64,000 nucleotides of DNA from Adineta ricciae (Eukaryota > Rotifera > Eurotatoria > Adinetida > Adinetidae). Location: positions 1-64,000 of the forward strand of contig CAJNOJ010000234.1 in assembly GCA_905250025.1 (NCBI GenBank), in the 5' to 3' direction. Under the pieces are notes generated by a model. It was not told the origin of the DNA and did no database searches. It worked only from the letters and a program-made list of their open reading frames with translations. Shown in pieces: positions 23,437-31,500 of the stretch. Position 1 is the stretch's first letter; each line of letters starts with the position of its first letter. The position numbers and the translations under genes are program-made.

Positions 23437-26400
23437 ATGATCGATGGCAATGTCGGAGGCGGTGGTAGCGAAACCGATATTATCGGTAGCGCATCTGAGA
23501 TCATCAAAGATCGCCTTTATTTCGCCACATTACGTATACGACCTAAATCCACTGCCAACACACACTTCTTCTCCGTCGATGATGAATACGTCTATGAAAA
23601 GTAAATTAAAAATCAAAAGTTTATTGTCGATCGCATCCTTTTTTTTTGTTCATAGTTTCTATGCTGATTTTGGCCCGTTGAATTTAGCCGTCGTTCATCG
23701 ATACTGTACAAAGTTGAATAAAAAGCTAAATGTATGGAAAACAAATTTGATTTGTTAGTATTTTGATTGCAAATGTTTCTTTTTAGAATCCTACGCTTGG
23801 ACACAAAAGAATCATCCATTATACAACCTTCGATCCAAAAAAACGAGCAAATGCAGCGTTTCTTATCGCTGCTTATTCAGTAAGGAAAGATCATTTCGAA
23901 GAAAAGCATCTCCTCTTTTGATTTCCAGGTTATCTACTTGAAACGAACACCTGAAGATGCATACAAACCATTAGTGAGCGGTATCAATGCTGTCCATTCA
24001 TTTCTGCCATTTCGAGATGCGTCACTCGGCTCATCATCGTATAATCTTACATTACTCGACACATTGCAAGGACTCTATAAGGTTAATCTTATTTCCATAC
24101 ATTATTTTCTGTTAACAAAGTATAGTATTTCTAGGCGATGCTTCACGGCTTTTTTGACTTCGAAAATTTCGACTTAGAAGAATACGAACATTACGAAGTA
24201 ACATTTTTGAGGAAAAAAAATCTGATTGGTAAGAAGAAGAAAATTTATTTTTGTTTAGAAAGTAGAAAATGGAGATTTGAATTGGATTGTACCTCGTAAA
24301 ATACTCGCGTTTTCCGGTCCACATACGAAAAGTAAAATCGAGAATGTAAGTTTGTGTTTGTGATACGCTTTTTTTTCTCCGGCAATTTATATTCGTTATG
24401 ATCTTCTATTCAAGGGTTATCCATTGCACGCACCTGAAGCCTACTTTACTTATTTTCGTAAACGAAATGTGACGACCATTGTACGTTTGAATAAGAAGAT
24501 CTATGATGCCAAACGATTTAGCGACGCTGGTTTTGATCATCATGAATTGTTCTTCAATGATGGTAGTACACCGAGTGATGCGATTACGCTGAAATTCTTG
24601 AGTATTGTGGAACAAGCGAAAGGAGCTGTTGCCGTCCATTGTAAAGGTAATGAAGACAAAAAGAAAACAAGTTTCAAACAGCCAAATGATCATGTTCTTT
24701 CTTGCTTTTTGTTCTGTACAGCGGGCCTTGGTCGAACGGGTACTTTGATCGGCGCCTATCTAATGAAGCACTATAAATTTACAGCAGCTGAGATTATTGC
24801 TTGGTTGAGAATATGCCGGCCGGGTTCTGTTATTGGACCTCAGCAAAATTACCTCGAAGAGTAAAGAATCTGATTGACTTATGCATAGCGAAAAAATTAT
24901 CATGATATTTTTCATCGAATCTTTGTAGAAAACAAGCGTGGCTCTGGTCATTAGGCGATACGTATCGAATTAAAGACCGTCCGCGATACATGTCCTCGTA
25001 CGGTATAAATTCGGCTATGGATACGACTGGTCTTGGTCCCCTTCGGTACTCAATAGGAGACTCGAATAATAACAATGAAGTACGTTATGAATCCATGAAA
25101 TACTTATCCTATAGAAACGATACTTTTCTATTTAAAGGAAGAGAATGACAATGAAATAACGCAAGGCGATCGATTGAATGAAATCAAAGCACGTCGTATG
25201 CAACAGCATCATTCCACAGGTCCATCACATTGGGCATCTCCAAACACGAATGTGACTTCGAGTTTAACGTAAGCTATCTTTGATTTATTGCGAGCTCTCT
25301 CGTTTTTTCAAAAGCCTTTCAAGTCGAACTTAGTGCCAAACGAAAACGCTTGTGCATGTTTAACGAAATCATAACTAATCGTTTAGGTGTAAATATTGTA
25401 ATAAAACTTATCAGTCATCCGCAACATTAATCAAACATATGAAAAGCCAACACCCAAATCAATACTCAATCACTTGTAACAAATGTTCCAACAGATCGTT
25501 TTCAACAAAAAAAGCTTTACAAATACATCAAAATCGAGTGCATAACAACACTAATGCTATCGCCGATGGTGGTGGTACCGATAGGTACTTCAGATTAGTT
25601 TCTAATCGCATGGGTGAACTGTTCGTCTTCAAATGCTGATCGTATAGAAACGATCTGTGATTAGATAATTAATAGATTGTTTGGGAAGATTGTTCATTTC
25701 ACTGCTCGCTATATTCGTTTTCATTTTTTTTTATTGCTCGAAAACTGCTCGTTGAGTGATAGGGAATCGGTATGATTTGATGTAAGAAAAATATTTTATT
25801 CTAGTCTGTTCACAAGACCTTTATCGTCAGCAGTAACCATGGATGATGAACACATAGCGCCACTTCGACTATACAAGAATCGTGCTGTTACGGCTCCTAT
25901 CAATTTCCATGAAATCCATCGATCGACTCTATTTGCTACGCTAGACTCAGAAAGGTGTTTTCATAAAATAGGATTTCGGATTGTTGTCATTATATACATA
26001 TCAATTATCCTTTCGCTTCTATATTTCCAGTTGTTTCGTTAGTCATCCTATTTTCTTTTACCTGTTTGACCGTGTGTGTGTGTGAATGCGTTCCATTTGC
26101 ATGATTTAGTAGCTCGCTGATGAAAAAAGACGAGCACGGACAGCGCTGCCATGTTTTCCTATTGACTTTTTATTGATTTTATACTCAAATTTTCTTTTTA
26201 TTTTATTTTCTTATGCAGCTTTGATCCATCGTCAACATACAAACGCGCTCAAACAGCACTGATCTCTTCGGGCGGCGTACCACTTCAAAATGTCTCATCA
26301 TCGATGACTCCATCAACAAATCTCCGTCGTAGTTATACACCGGTATCGAATACGCCGTCGAATGCTCTGCCAAGTTCCAATTGGCGCAAGCCTCGGTCTT

Positions 26401-26935
26401 ACATTACCCCATCGGCATCGACTATGAAAACGTAAGAGCCTATTTATAAACATGACATTTACCAGATCAAACACATTCAGCTCGCATGAAAAATAGTCTT
26501 AATGAGATAGAAAGACTCATTTGTTCACAACACCTTTGTAAGCGATATATTTACATATACGACTAAAAAAATCTCTAATCTAAAGGAAAACACAATAAAA
26601 CTGTTCTTTATTGATGCTGGAATCTAACAAAAGAAAAACACGCGCTATTGACATAACTAAATCTGCTTTTTCCTCCTTTACTTTGTTCATTAATTTAATT
26701 CATTGTATATTCTAGTCCAACGTATTCCAGTGGACGTTACATGACTTCAGCATTAAATGATAATATGGGCACAACCTTAACTATATCTGATAGCGCCAAT
26801 CGTGATCCTGTTTCATCAGCGATATTGAAAACTTCTTCAAACCAACAATATCGCGGTAAATCACCGATCGCGAATACGACTTCTTCACCCACTCATTCTT
26901 ATTACACACGATCAAAATCGGTAAATGCACGATGA
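23437..26935 (+). CDS. CDC14: CDC14 dual-specificity phosphatase
   Basis: A proline-directed phosphatase of mitotic exit, cytokinesis and ciliary/centrosomal regulation. It starts with a Gly-rich leader and [12 protein letters not shown]. The non-catalytic A domain ([18 protein letters not shown]) and the B domain with [14 protein letters not shown] follow. The phosphatase P-loop HCKAGLGRTG spans the junction near 24645/24721, and the general acid loop precedes it. Confident exons include 23437-23600, 23656-23731, 23787-23879, 23930-24080 (approximate), 24422-24645 and 24721-24861. After the catalytic core a Ser/Thr/Pro-rich tail is encoded by exons near 25802-25955, 26219-26432 and 26716-26935. 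The tail exons meet in the same phase. Between 25264 and 25802 lies an extra exon with two zinc fingers (separate entry) that can splice in the same phase and would end the protein early. Roughly 690 residues by the long route. Confidence 0.93.
25387..25639 (+). CDS. possible alternative terminal exon of CDC14 with two C2H2 zinc fingers
   Basis: After a TTTAG acceptor ending at 25386 the frame that continues CDC14 (whose upstream exon ends in phase 2 at a GTAAGC donor near 25270) is open to a TGA at 25637-25639. It encodes two well-formed fingers: C-x2-C-x12-H-x4-H starting [19 protein letters not shown], and C-x2-C-x13-H-x4-H starting [10 protein letters not shown] Gly/Asp-rich tail of about 30 residues follows. 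Using it would replace the long Ser-rich tail by a putative DNA- or protein-binding module. Skipping it also keeps frame, with the exon near 25802. It could instead be the last exon of another gene or an inserted remnant; no separate promoter or start was seen. No perfect AATAAA follows within 100 bases. Confidence 0.5.
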
Positions 26936-28546
26936 ACAATTTGCTAACTTTGAACATTCTCCCTTTAGTCTTATTCCAAATATTGAAATTCACCAAAGTA
27001 GAGAGAAAAACGAAAAAACCGTTTTGCTATCCTCCAATGCAATCTCTCTTTCCCCGCGTTCATTTATTTGTGCCAAACTGCGTGTTTTTTCTTTTTTTTT
27101 CAATGAGAATCGCTTTTCTATTCGTTTTGTTTTTCTTTTCCTTGTTTTTTTTTGTAGTTGCGAGACTTTTTGCTTTAATAATTATGGAAGTTTTTTAAAG
27201 AAAGAACAAGTACTCTCTTTGTCTCTTGCGTGTATGCATTTTTTTGTTAAGCTTATTTACTGATCCTGCCGCTACTACTGATGCTTTTTTCTACTACTAC
27301 TACTACTATTACTCTCTCTCTCTCTATATATATATATGAACGGAACCTTTCTTGTCTTGTATATGTATTCTCTTGTAATTTAAAACAGAACAAAATATAA
27401 TGACGAAAAGACAAGAACAAAAAACTGAATTTCAGATTTATTGTAACAAATAAAGTTCTCTCAATAATTGGATTTCGTCTGTTTAGCTTATATTACATGA
27501 TTGACAGTAGCAGATTGTCGTAAATCTCATCTTTCTTTCACAATTATAAGCAGATTTAATAATAAATGGACAATTTATTCAAAATAATATTCCGATCTGA
27601 CATTGCATTTAAATCTCTTGAATAATTATTCTCAAAATTCTATCGACGTCCGGTAACGGATATTTGATCAATTCTTTGACTGAAATTATTTCTTTTCTGG
27701 AATCAAACTTTATAATTATATTGTTCCGGACTATGATCATTATCTACGTCGAATTATTAACACAGGCGATTATCGTATTTTCTTCTCTCGCTCTTCGAAT
27801 GACTTCTTTTCTCGGTTGATTCATAGACAGATGACTTAAGCATTAAATTAAGTAGTTCATCATCGTCATCATCATTGCCTCTTATTGTAATTGCTAACAT
27901 ACAGGAAATTCTTATTGAACAACGAAGAAAAAGCAGAGAATGAGCAAGCATACGGATAGATAGAGAGATAAGGAAGAAGTAGAGTTTGAGTGAATTCTCT
28001 GGAGATCTCATTTCTTTTTTGACGAACATTCATCATCATTTCTCTCGTTTTTCTTTCTGTCTTTACATGAAGTTTTTTTTTCCAAAATGGTAGCATTCAG
28101 TGTTGTGTATGAAAACCGAGGCGATGAAGAAAGAGAAAAGAAAATGGGGAAAAATCTATCTGACTATTAGAATCGAGAGAAATGTGATGCGGTTTGATAG
28201 AAGATGGAAAGCTCAACAGAGGAAAACATAGAAGAACAAAGAGAAAACGCGAATCGAGAGACGTACTGGACGGGAAAAGTGAGGGAAGCACGTCAAGTAA
28301 CTAGAGCATACAAAGGCACATGCACACACGAGTTTGCCAGTTGAACTTGTGAGTATCCGAGAAAAGAAAAAGAGAGAGAGAGAGAGAAAAAAAAGACAAG
28401 GACAGAACGGAACATTGTAGAATAGTACCACTGTGCAATAGCATCAAAAAGGAATATTTAATTAATATGATTGTAGCGTGGCATCAGATCATACGTCATT
28501 GTGTCTCCGGTCGTTCAGTCGTCCTCCGCCCATTTTGTCTTACTGA
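26936..28546. other. intergenic CDC14 / active-zone gene
   Basis: CDC14 3' UTR with AATAAA near 27449, a microsatellite-rich patch (27288-27340), then the upstream region of the next gene. The minus-strand open frames between 27757 and 28431 are Arg/Ser/Phe-rich and overlap each other without a domain. I see no gene. Confidence 0.5.
27288..27340. repeat. compound microsatellite (CTA)n-(CT)n-(TA)n
   Basis: About eight CTA triplets run into a CT run and then a TA run. It lies in the CDC14 3' flank and has no coding role. Confidence 0.9.
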
Positions 28547-31500
28547 ATGTTCAATTCATTGAAAAGGTGGGTGCAAGATGTGGCGGTCGATCTTAATCCA
28601 TCGCTACCACCCTTAACATCATCTACAACAGCAACGTCATCACCTTCATCTTCATTGTTCCTACCGTCATCTTCAAGGCAAGGGACAAGCACACAACAGT
28701 ATTCACGTTCGCTGACACCGTCGAATGAACACTTTACAATAAATCCATCATCAGTATCGACGATGGGTCTCACGAGACCAATATCCATGGATAATATGCG
28801 TGGTTCCAAAGTGACAAATGCATTTGTACCACCACCACCAGCATCGCCTGGAGAACTCGATCTAAGTCATCTGAATCGTGAAGAACAAGAACATATCGCT
28901 AATGTTCTCAGACGAGCAAGAGCCGTCGACGAACAACAAGTATCAGTTCCACCAGTCGTTGTCCGTACAATTCAATCGCCACCGGCGTCAATAGTCTCAG
29001 CCTCATTATCGCCGTCGGCATCATCCTCATCCTCCAAGTCGACAAGTAGTTTTAGCAGTGACAGAGCGGAAAAATATAAACAGAACGATAAAAATGATAA
29101 TATCGATGATCTTGAAATGTAAGTAGATTAGTTCTCGCATGTTTCACTTTCATCTCACGAAAAGTCATATCTCTTAGATTCTTATTTCGAAGATTTTCAC
29201 ACATCATCTCTCTTGATAAATTCTCTAATTAACTTTGTCGCTTCAAAGGTGATGCATGTCAAACTAGACAATAAAACAAATTATTCTTTTTCCTTTTCAT
29301 TTCCATAGCTTTGTACTTCCCAGACATTTTAAATTTGTGTCCGTCTCTCGCTCTCTCTCTCTCTCTTTCTCAGCATAAATATATATAAATATTTAGCTAA
29401 CACGCAAATAGTGATAAAAAACAAAGAAAAAGGACTCCTCGTACAAGCGAGAAAACGTCAATTAGAAAAAGATTATTCATAACGAAGTTTGACAAAACTC
29501 TTCCTTGCTTTCCCTTCGTTAGTCAATCAAAATTCAACATGATTCTATTTGAGAAATCATATATGAGCAGTGATCGAGCACATCTATTAAATTTGTTGAT
29601 GGATGATTTCTCACAAGAGTTTTCTTTTATTAGCAGATATAACGATGAAGAACATTCCTCGTCGCCGTCGTTAGAATCAACAATCATAAATATTCACCGA
29701 TGTCAAGTGTGTAATAAAGAGCAACAACAGAAATTGGAAGAAAATGTGCCGATTTGTCTTCAGTGTCAAATCGATGAAGAAATTGCTCAAGCAATGCAGA
29801 ACAATACCATTCCTGTAAGTAACAACAGAAATGTCTGTTTGCGATGCCATTCAATACTTCAAATATCGTTTTTCTTTTCGGATTTGATTAGCGCACGTCG
29901 ATAAGAAAATCATCATCTCCTGTCCAAATAGAGCTGAATGAGAATGACGAAGATAAAATCTACGATAACGTCATGAGAATTGATCAGGAATCAATAAAAC
30001 CAGATTTGCTGACGGAAGAATATGCATCTCATCTAGAAGTTCCTCATTACATTGACAAAATGAATGATAATCAAGGCCAAAATGAAGAAAAAGAAATAAG
30101 CGATGACGAGGAACAACAACAGTGTCAATTAGTAAATCTTGAATCGTCATTTCCCGTGAAAACGCGATCAAATAATCTGACAGAAATCGATGAGAACGAT
30201 TTCTTTTATCAAGGACCAAGTCCTTACATTGCTGCAATTGATAATAATCAAATGCTCGACAAAATCGAAGAGCCATCTCTGCCAACATATAAAATCGATG
30301 AATATGTCGATGAAGACGATAATGATGAACGCGATCATGTTAAAGAACTTGAAGAAACAATCGCAAATCTCTCTCGACATCTACCAGTATCACCAACGCA
30401 AGTAAACGAGATGAAGAATCAAGCAATTGTCACAAATTTACGTCAACCAACAAATTTATCTGGAAGTAATATCGATATTGATTCGATTCTTGAGATGGAA
30501 ATCGAATCACCATCTGCCGATGAACAGTTTATTCAATCTTCTTCAGTCGCTCGAACTTGTGCAGGAGCTTCTCAACTTCCTCTCAACGTTCCCATTACTG
30601 TACCGATATCATTTAATAACAATCGTCGAATAAGTCTTAGTCGTTCATCCGGTGTACGAGAAAATCTAACTGATTTATTATTGATAACCGCAACAACGAC
30701 AACATCGTCGTCGTTCTCATCTTCATCTTCGTCAACATCATCGACAACAACAGTACCATCAATACAAGAATCCTATTGTGATGATCACCGACCATTGCAG
30801 CGAACAGCTTCCACGTATGGAAAGGTATATAGCTAATAATTATATTTACTTTTATTTTCTTATATTAATATAATCCGGATAAGATGAGGCAATCTAGTTT
30901 ACGTAGATTCATTAAATTTGATGAATATTTTTTTATTTTGACGTAGTTGCAAGCAAAGATATGCTAATATATTCACACGATTAATAAGGCAGCTCTAGGC
31001 GATCTCTTATTTCATTAAAAAAAAAACTACATCCGCCTTCTCTTTTCTCATCCTCCCTTCTTCCTTTCCTATATAGACAATTTTCCTTCCAAACAATTTA
31101 TAAATATTAAGCTGATCTTCGAACTACCTAGAGAAACGCTCTAATTGTTTTTTTTCTCATTCAGCGTATGATGCTGCCAATACATCGACAAAAACGCAAT
31201 CTGCCATCTGTCCCTACAATTACAAATAACTTACAATTGCGTCGCGTCAATTCCGAATCTCGTTTCAGTCTTCCAGCTGTCCCACCTACAATTCTTATTA
31301 CTAATGGTAATCTCGATGATGAAAGTGATCTGTTGGAAATTGATCTCAATGATCCCATTGGTTCAATGAATAGAACAGAACATTCCAAAACAGAAACAAA
31401 TTTAACTAGTAATAGTAATCCATCGGATTACAATCTAGTCACATTAACTACGAATGAGCAATCTTCATCCATGGAGGAAATTATTCTGAGAAAAAAGCCA

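Follow-up and report, generated by a model that had tools for sequence, protein, structure and literature searches.

The window, a stretch of 64,000 nucleotides of the bdelloid rotifer Adineta ricciae (contig CAJNOJ010000234.1, hereafter C234), carries on its + strand a CDC14 gene that is complete according to our gene model. The CDC14 phosphatase, which is conserved widely, targets phosphoserine sites of the Cdk type and normally has a disordered tail. The model consists of 15 coding exons, starts with the ATG at 23437, closes with a TGA whose last base is 26986 and encodes 690 residues with no internal stop (Table 1). The spliced protein matches the Pfam families DSPn (PF14671; E 1.7e-56, 190.9 bits against a cut-off of 28.2) and DSPc (PF00782; E 4.3e-14, 52.9 bits against a cut-off of 33.5). 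Among solved structures the best match is human CDC14A (9rib_A; E 5.5e-171, residues 14–352), and all six distinct sequences among the solved-structure matches with E up to 1e-10 are CDC14. The HCX5R active-site loop, HCKAGLGR, has its codons split across E7 and E8 (24637–24646 and 24722–24735) and is intact in the window model as well as in the models of two further CDC14 loci on contigs C39 and C27. At the 3′ end, a donor after 26920 that is conserved in C27 leads to an 18-nucleotide last exon encoding SYSKY and the stop codon. The gene end at 26935 given in a preliminary description of this DNA is thus slightly off, as the stop at 26933–26935 is probably intronic given the conserved donor. 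In C27 the tail exon E12 was not found as an exon of its own, and E13 contains a similar TAPVN stretch there.

Table 1. Features of the CDC14 locus in the window (positions are those of the window)
Feature	Position	Strand	Remarks and basis
CDC14 E1–E4	23437–23600, 23656–23731, 23787–23879, 23929–24081	+	Gene model
CDC14 E5–E8	24135–24197, 24259–24345, 24415–24646, 24722–24860	+	Gene model
CDC14 E1–E8	23437–24860	+	N-terminal and catalytic DSP domains (Pfam; human CDC14A 9rib)
CDC14 E9	24929–25079	+	End of catalytic part and subsequent linker; gene model
CDC14 E10	25138–25268	+	SLiCE-like peptide at 25159–25197; gene model
Zinc-finger exon	25387–25584	+	198 nt, phase 2-2; Pfam, alignment of three copies, gene model
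Read-through extension beyond the 25584/25585 donor	25585–25639	+	Terminated by a stop codon; probably intronic, or else a short alternative C-terminus
CDC14 tail exon E12	25805–25954	+	Phase 2-2; gene model
CDC14 tail exon E13, Ser-rich	26219–26431	+	Phase 2-2; gene model
CDC14 tail exon E14	26716–26920	+	Gene model
CDC14 last coding exon E15, SYSKY and stop	26969–26986	+	Same peptide in C39 and C27

Directly after the catalytic part, a frame that is open over 25379–25639 holds two C2H2 zinc fingers. The window stretch scores 38.3 bits with PF00096 (cut-off 25.2) over two stretches, and at E up to 0.01 the profile marks two stretches and matches all three members (window, C39 and C27); within the whole spliced protein finger 1 alone passes 0.001 individually, finger 2 being weaker. 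The zinc ligands lie within 25388–25453 (finger 1) and 25475–25543 (finger 2). Two 'regular' fingers had been claimed; their number stands, and the adjective is slightly generous for finger 2, in which 13 instead of 12 residues separate the second cysteine from the first histidine. Across the three copies seven of the eight ligands occupy invariant columns, and the remaining one, the second histidine of finger 1, is shifted by one place in C27 (HX4H to HX3H). The linker between the fingers reads PNQYSIT in the window and is about ten residues longer in C27. An AlphaFold2 model of the finger exon has a mean pLDDT of 75.4 and places one helix in each finger. The acceptor TTTAG/GTGT at 25386/25387 joins the donor after 25268 in phase 2 (ACG TGT, Thr-Cys), and the acceptor of E12 at 25805 fits phase 2 as well; the finger exon therefore continues the CDC14 frame and the exon after it splices in the same phase, both as initially proposed.

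To place the exon in the genome, the 130 Mb assembly (1033 contigs) was searched with the finger-exon peptide, which gave 26 matches at E up to 10. Besides the window itself, those on C39 (93% identity, E 6.4e-51) and C27 (57%, E 4.8e-11) stand out and are followed by a match on C11 (40%, E 1.4e-4). Five of the seven matches to the catalytic open reading frame fall on the same three loci, with the other two weak and at other places, and all 12 matches to PF14671 lie at these loci. Three is the number of CDC14 loci found by searches that score best candidates, in an assembly that may lack a copy; among these three, no CDC14 locus without the finger exon was found. The full models of the C39 and C27 genes read through with the finger exon in the same place and phase, giving 690 residues in the window and in C39 and 636 in C27. 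The exon is phase 2-2 at all three loci and measures 198, 198 and 219 nt, in each case a multiple of three; the C27 copy differs by an insertion of 30 nt in the linker and a deletion of 9 nt near the exon end, which together keep the frame. Its recurrence at the C39 and C27 loci shows that the exon is not a chance open frame, and we regard it with high confidence as a genuine CDC14 coding exon. The C11 match (1501–1671 of stretch L004) is itself a two-finger stretch that is similarly spaced, with HPSQ in the linker; it is a possible distant relative judging from the sequence, and the match is too weak for it to be taken as the source of the CDC14 exon. Relatives of the CDC14 exon-7 peptide were also sought in two collections not meant to hold rotifers, genome_contigs (151 pattern matches, none confirmed) and viral_contigs (16 pattern matches, none confirmed). 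A four-unit pattern of TGTGGG, a telomere repeat that we take to be linked to bdelloids, has 38 matches, many of them overlapping, and TTAGGG has none.

The C39 copy shares 94.7% DNA identity with the window over 6.5 kb and looks like a former allele of the window copy. C27 matches the window in blocks that run past CDC14 on both sides and looks like an old, diverged segmental duplicate. Downstream of CDC14 the next + strand open frame (28547–29122) recurs after CDC14, in the same order, in the C27 duplicate (MLSSLKKWVQDV...), which supports segmental duplication. The E3–E4 intron has 443 nt in C27 (C27:83547–83989, stretch L017) against 49 nt in each of the other two copies, which suggests an insertion. 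Bdelloid rotifers are described as degenerate tetraploids with two to four copies of most loci (PMC6264785), and the title of a work cited in that paper places the tetraploidy before the divergence of the bdelloid families. The present set of an allele-like pair and a single diverged copy fits this arrangement and, if the C27 copy is an ohnolog from the bdelloid tetraploidy, the finger exon is at least that old.

Rates of change between the window and C27 were taken over ungapped aligned codons only, E12 having no counterpart. For the finger exon dN is 0.261 and dS 0.672, compared with 0.071 and 1.98 for E1–E8, 0.34 and 2.3 for E9–E10, and 0.35 and 3.2 for the rest of the tail. Within the fingers alone pN (0.22) is lower than pS (0.47; Fisher test on rounded counts, p 0.011). 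Outside Met and Trp, codons for the same residue agree in 26 of 32 cases in the finger exon versus 206 of 409 elsewhere (p 7e-4). This low synonymous change is partly a matter of composition, since the codon identity expected at saturation is higher in the finger exon (0.53) than elsewhere (0.31–0.39); for two-fold amino acids alone the counts are 21 of 24 versus 112 of 169 (p 0.036). Between the window and C39 the finger exon shows six non-synonymous changes and one synonymous change, so that recent constraint on the finger protein is not evident. Its non-synonymous rate in this pair is above that of the core (p 0.002) and not clearly above that of the tail (p 0.12), and the synonymous deficit between these two copies is not significant (p 0.35). 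None of the window/C39 changes removes a zinc ligand. At the sequence level, the eight ligands (one of them shifted) and the donor of the exon are conserved across the old duplication.

Skipping of the finger exon would leave the reading frame intact at all three loci, given its symmetrical phase and its length divisible by three. Its flanking introns measure 118 and 220 nt (window) and 110 and 502 nt (C27), compared with 49–75 nt for the window's nine introns up to E10. Long introns are not special to the finger exon, as those between E12 and E13 and between E13 and E14 have 264 and 284 nt in the window and the one between E3 and E4 has 443 nt in C27; likewise, phase symmetry by itself is no sign of a cassette because other tail exons are also phase 2-2. 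The finger-exon acceptor of C27 is weak (score 0.25, with only one of 25 other acceptors lower) and lies outside the best six of the 36 AGs between the neighbouring exons. In conserved alternative exons low synonymous change has been reported together with high amino-acid change (PMC1543662). A cassette would agree with the phase symmetry, the longer introns, the middling splice sites and the low synonymous change, none of which is proof of one. On balance, we lean slightly towards an exon that is sometimes skipped.

Where the exon ends decides whether a finger-bearing protein would keep the tail. The donor ATAG/GTACTT at 25584/25585, in phase 2, is identical in all three copies. In the three-copy alignment conservation reaches ATAGGTACTT and a few bases more, after which the frames diverge. 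Reading on past the donor adds 18 residues in the window and RYLRQIAYAWIDPRK in C27; beyond RYFR/RYLR the 14 window residues are unrelated to QIAYAWIDPRK of C27, so that the likeness is confined to RY-R at the donor. A used phase-2 donor at 25584/25585 accounts simply for this divergence. The preliminary description had instead let the exon stop at 25637–25639, making it an alternative last exon in which the donor is unused and the finger form loses the Ser-rich tail. The frame is indeed open to that stop in the window, and also to stops in C39 and in C27 (at 4637 of the reverse complement of L017); no sequence feature forbids this ending, and in C27 the variant polyadenylation signals AGTAAA (4635) and AATACA (4962) follow the fingers. 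Set against this are the identity of the donor in all copies, the lack of relation between the duplicates' peptides beyond it and the placement of the signals in the other two copies, where AATAAA (25400) and AATACA (25522) of the window and AATAAA (4005 of L016) of C39 fall inside the finger exon and no signal hexamer follows the stop (seven hexamers, searched between the start of the finger exon and E12). The conserved donor scores 4.12, within the range set by 25 other donors in the genes of the window and C27, three of which are lower, and it ranks third among the 32 GTs between the neighbouring exons in the window; at least six of 42 such GTs outscore it in C27. Other in-frame GTs precede the stop, with exon end 25620 and score 3.78 in the window and with exon end 4635 (reverse complement of L017) and score 6.85, higher than that of the conserved donor, in C27. 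We rank the terminal exon below the internal one, since conservation covers the donor but not what follows it; the former is improbable and the latter likely. The stop at 25637–25639, which would be used only if the conserved donor were skipped, is accordingly doubtful. For the optional form that had been proposed, gene and frame fit (phase 2-2 at three loci) and the last exon is revised to an internal one. The fingers would then be an internal insert, probably of 66 codons, ahead of the Ser-rich tail, which a finger-bearing form would keep if the exon is internal.

Three further readings concern the status of the exon. That the fingers form a small gene of their own inside a CDC14 intron is very improbable, and this reading was rejected: an in-frame TAA (25376–25378) lies just upstream of the acceptor, the sole in-frame ATG before finger 2 is within finger 1 and is replaced by ACG in C39 and CTG in C27, so that no start codon is shared by the three copies, and the exon's phase agrees with CDC14 at each locus. 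A relic, captured long ago, decaying and rarely spliced in, would explain the six non-synonymous changes to one synonymous change between the window and C39 and the weak C27 acceptor; it is unlikely in view of the frame and eight ligands kept in all three copies, of pN below pS in the fingers and of the age of the duplication, whose synonymous sites are near saturation elsewhere (dS about 2 for E1–E8). A constitutive exon, with the fingers as a fixed insert in every transcript, is a sub-case of the internal exon and does not exclude it. All three CDC14 loci found carry the exon and no copy lacks it, which favours the constitutive form; the low synonymous and high amino-acid change, the longer introns and the weak sites resemble a conserved alternative exon, although they are not decisive, and we consider constitutive inclusion a serious but less probable alternative to skipping.

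The surroundings of the fingers bear on their possible role. In human CDC14A a tail helix termed SLiCE is predicted to dock in the active site and, as reported from mutation and peptide assays, speeds catalysis (human peptide TQGDKLRALKSQR; PMC11407943). The 13-residue peptide of E10 resembles this human segment and is identical in all three copies; by eye, Gln395, Leu399 and Lys403 of the human helix are kept and Arg400 is replaced by Asn. SLiCE is described for vertebrates in that paper (PMC11407943), and the rotifer likeness hints that the motif may be older in animals. The first finger cysteine follows the SLiCE-like helix by about 24 residues in the window and 19 in C27, so that the fingers sit behind a probable control element. 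In classical DNA-reading tandem C2H2 arrays the fingers are joined by a conserved short TGEKP-type linker. The rotifer linker is neither of this type (PNQYSIT in the window) nor constant in length (longer by about ten residues in C27). This makes a rigid DNA-reading pair less likely, and the fingers may bind protein, RNA or, loosely, DNA. A nucleic-acid binder is a possibility to which we give somewhat less than even weight, and a docking module is what we favour, by inference.

The rotifer protein shares with animal CDC14 (human CDC14A and CDC14B) both DSP domains, the HCX5R motif, a core of about 340 residues that can be aligned to human CDC14A, a TQGD...K stretch like human SLiCE and a Ser-rich tail, but differs in the two C2H2 fingers inserted after the SLiCE-like stretch. 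The solved CDC14 chains that were matched align to the rotifer core only. Limited literature searches, covering open-licence PMC papers, found no CDC14 with zinc fingers among the titles listed, and none is known to us; the searches are not a census. In the insect BTB genes lola and fruitless, separate alternative last exons supply C2H2 fingers to a shared N-terminal part. The rotifer locus resembles them in that C2H2 fingers are added from a separate exon onto a shared N-terminal part, but those are alternative last exons of transcription factors, whereas the rotifer has one probable internal exon in an enzyme. DUSP12/YVH1 is an atypical dual-specificity phosphatase of another family than CDC14, its zinc-binding part is not known to hold a C2H2 pair and, to our knowledge, it has no optional zinc exon. 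As a functional analogy it likewise combines a DSP phosphatase with a zinc-binding part that follows it, described as a cysteine-rich domain (PMC9404827).

Taken together, the feature is real, conserved and unusual, and the exon is most likely internal and possibly optional. Our preferred explanation, which we hold to be probable, is an internal in-frame CDC14 exon that places two C2H2 fingers into the flexible tail, past the enhancer-like helix and ahead of the Ser-rich part, as a probable cassette and a proposed docking module. The exon would be spliced to the next tail exon by way of the 25584/25585 donor and could probably be skipped without loss of frame. The fingers may dock nucleic acid or, at least as likely, protein, and docking would direct the enzyme to a specific location or partner and leave the active site unchanged. 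The position of the fingers shortly past the enhancer-like helix offers a testable link between localization and catalytic control. Traditional meiosis is described as unknown in bdelloids (PMC6264785). A bdelloid CDC14 splice switch may be imagined, rather speculatively, in which inclusion of the fingers tethers an otherwise free mitotic-exit phosphatase to chromatin, RNA or a fixed partner, which predates the bdelloid genome duplication and which is perhaps tied to altered meiosis or recovery from DNA damage. For the core cell-cycle machinery, zinc fingers gained in the CDC14 tail and retained in all copies found would be a rare kind of domain gain, its rarity being judged rather than surveyed, and the gain would predate the bdelloid duplication if that is the duplication seen here.
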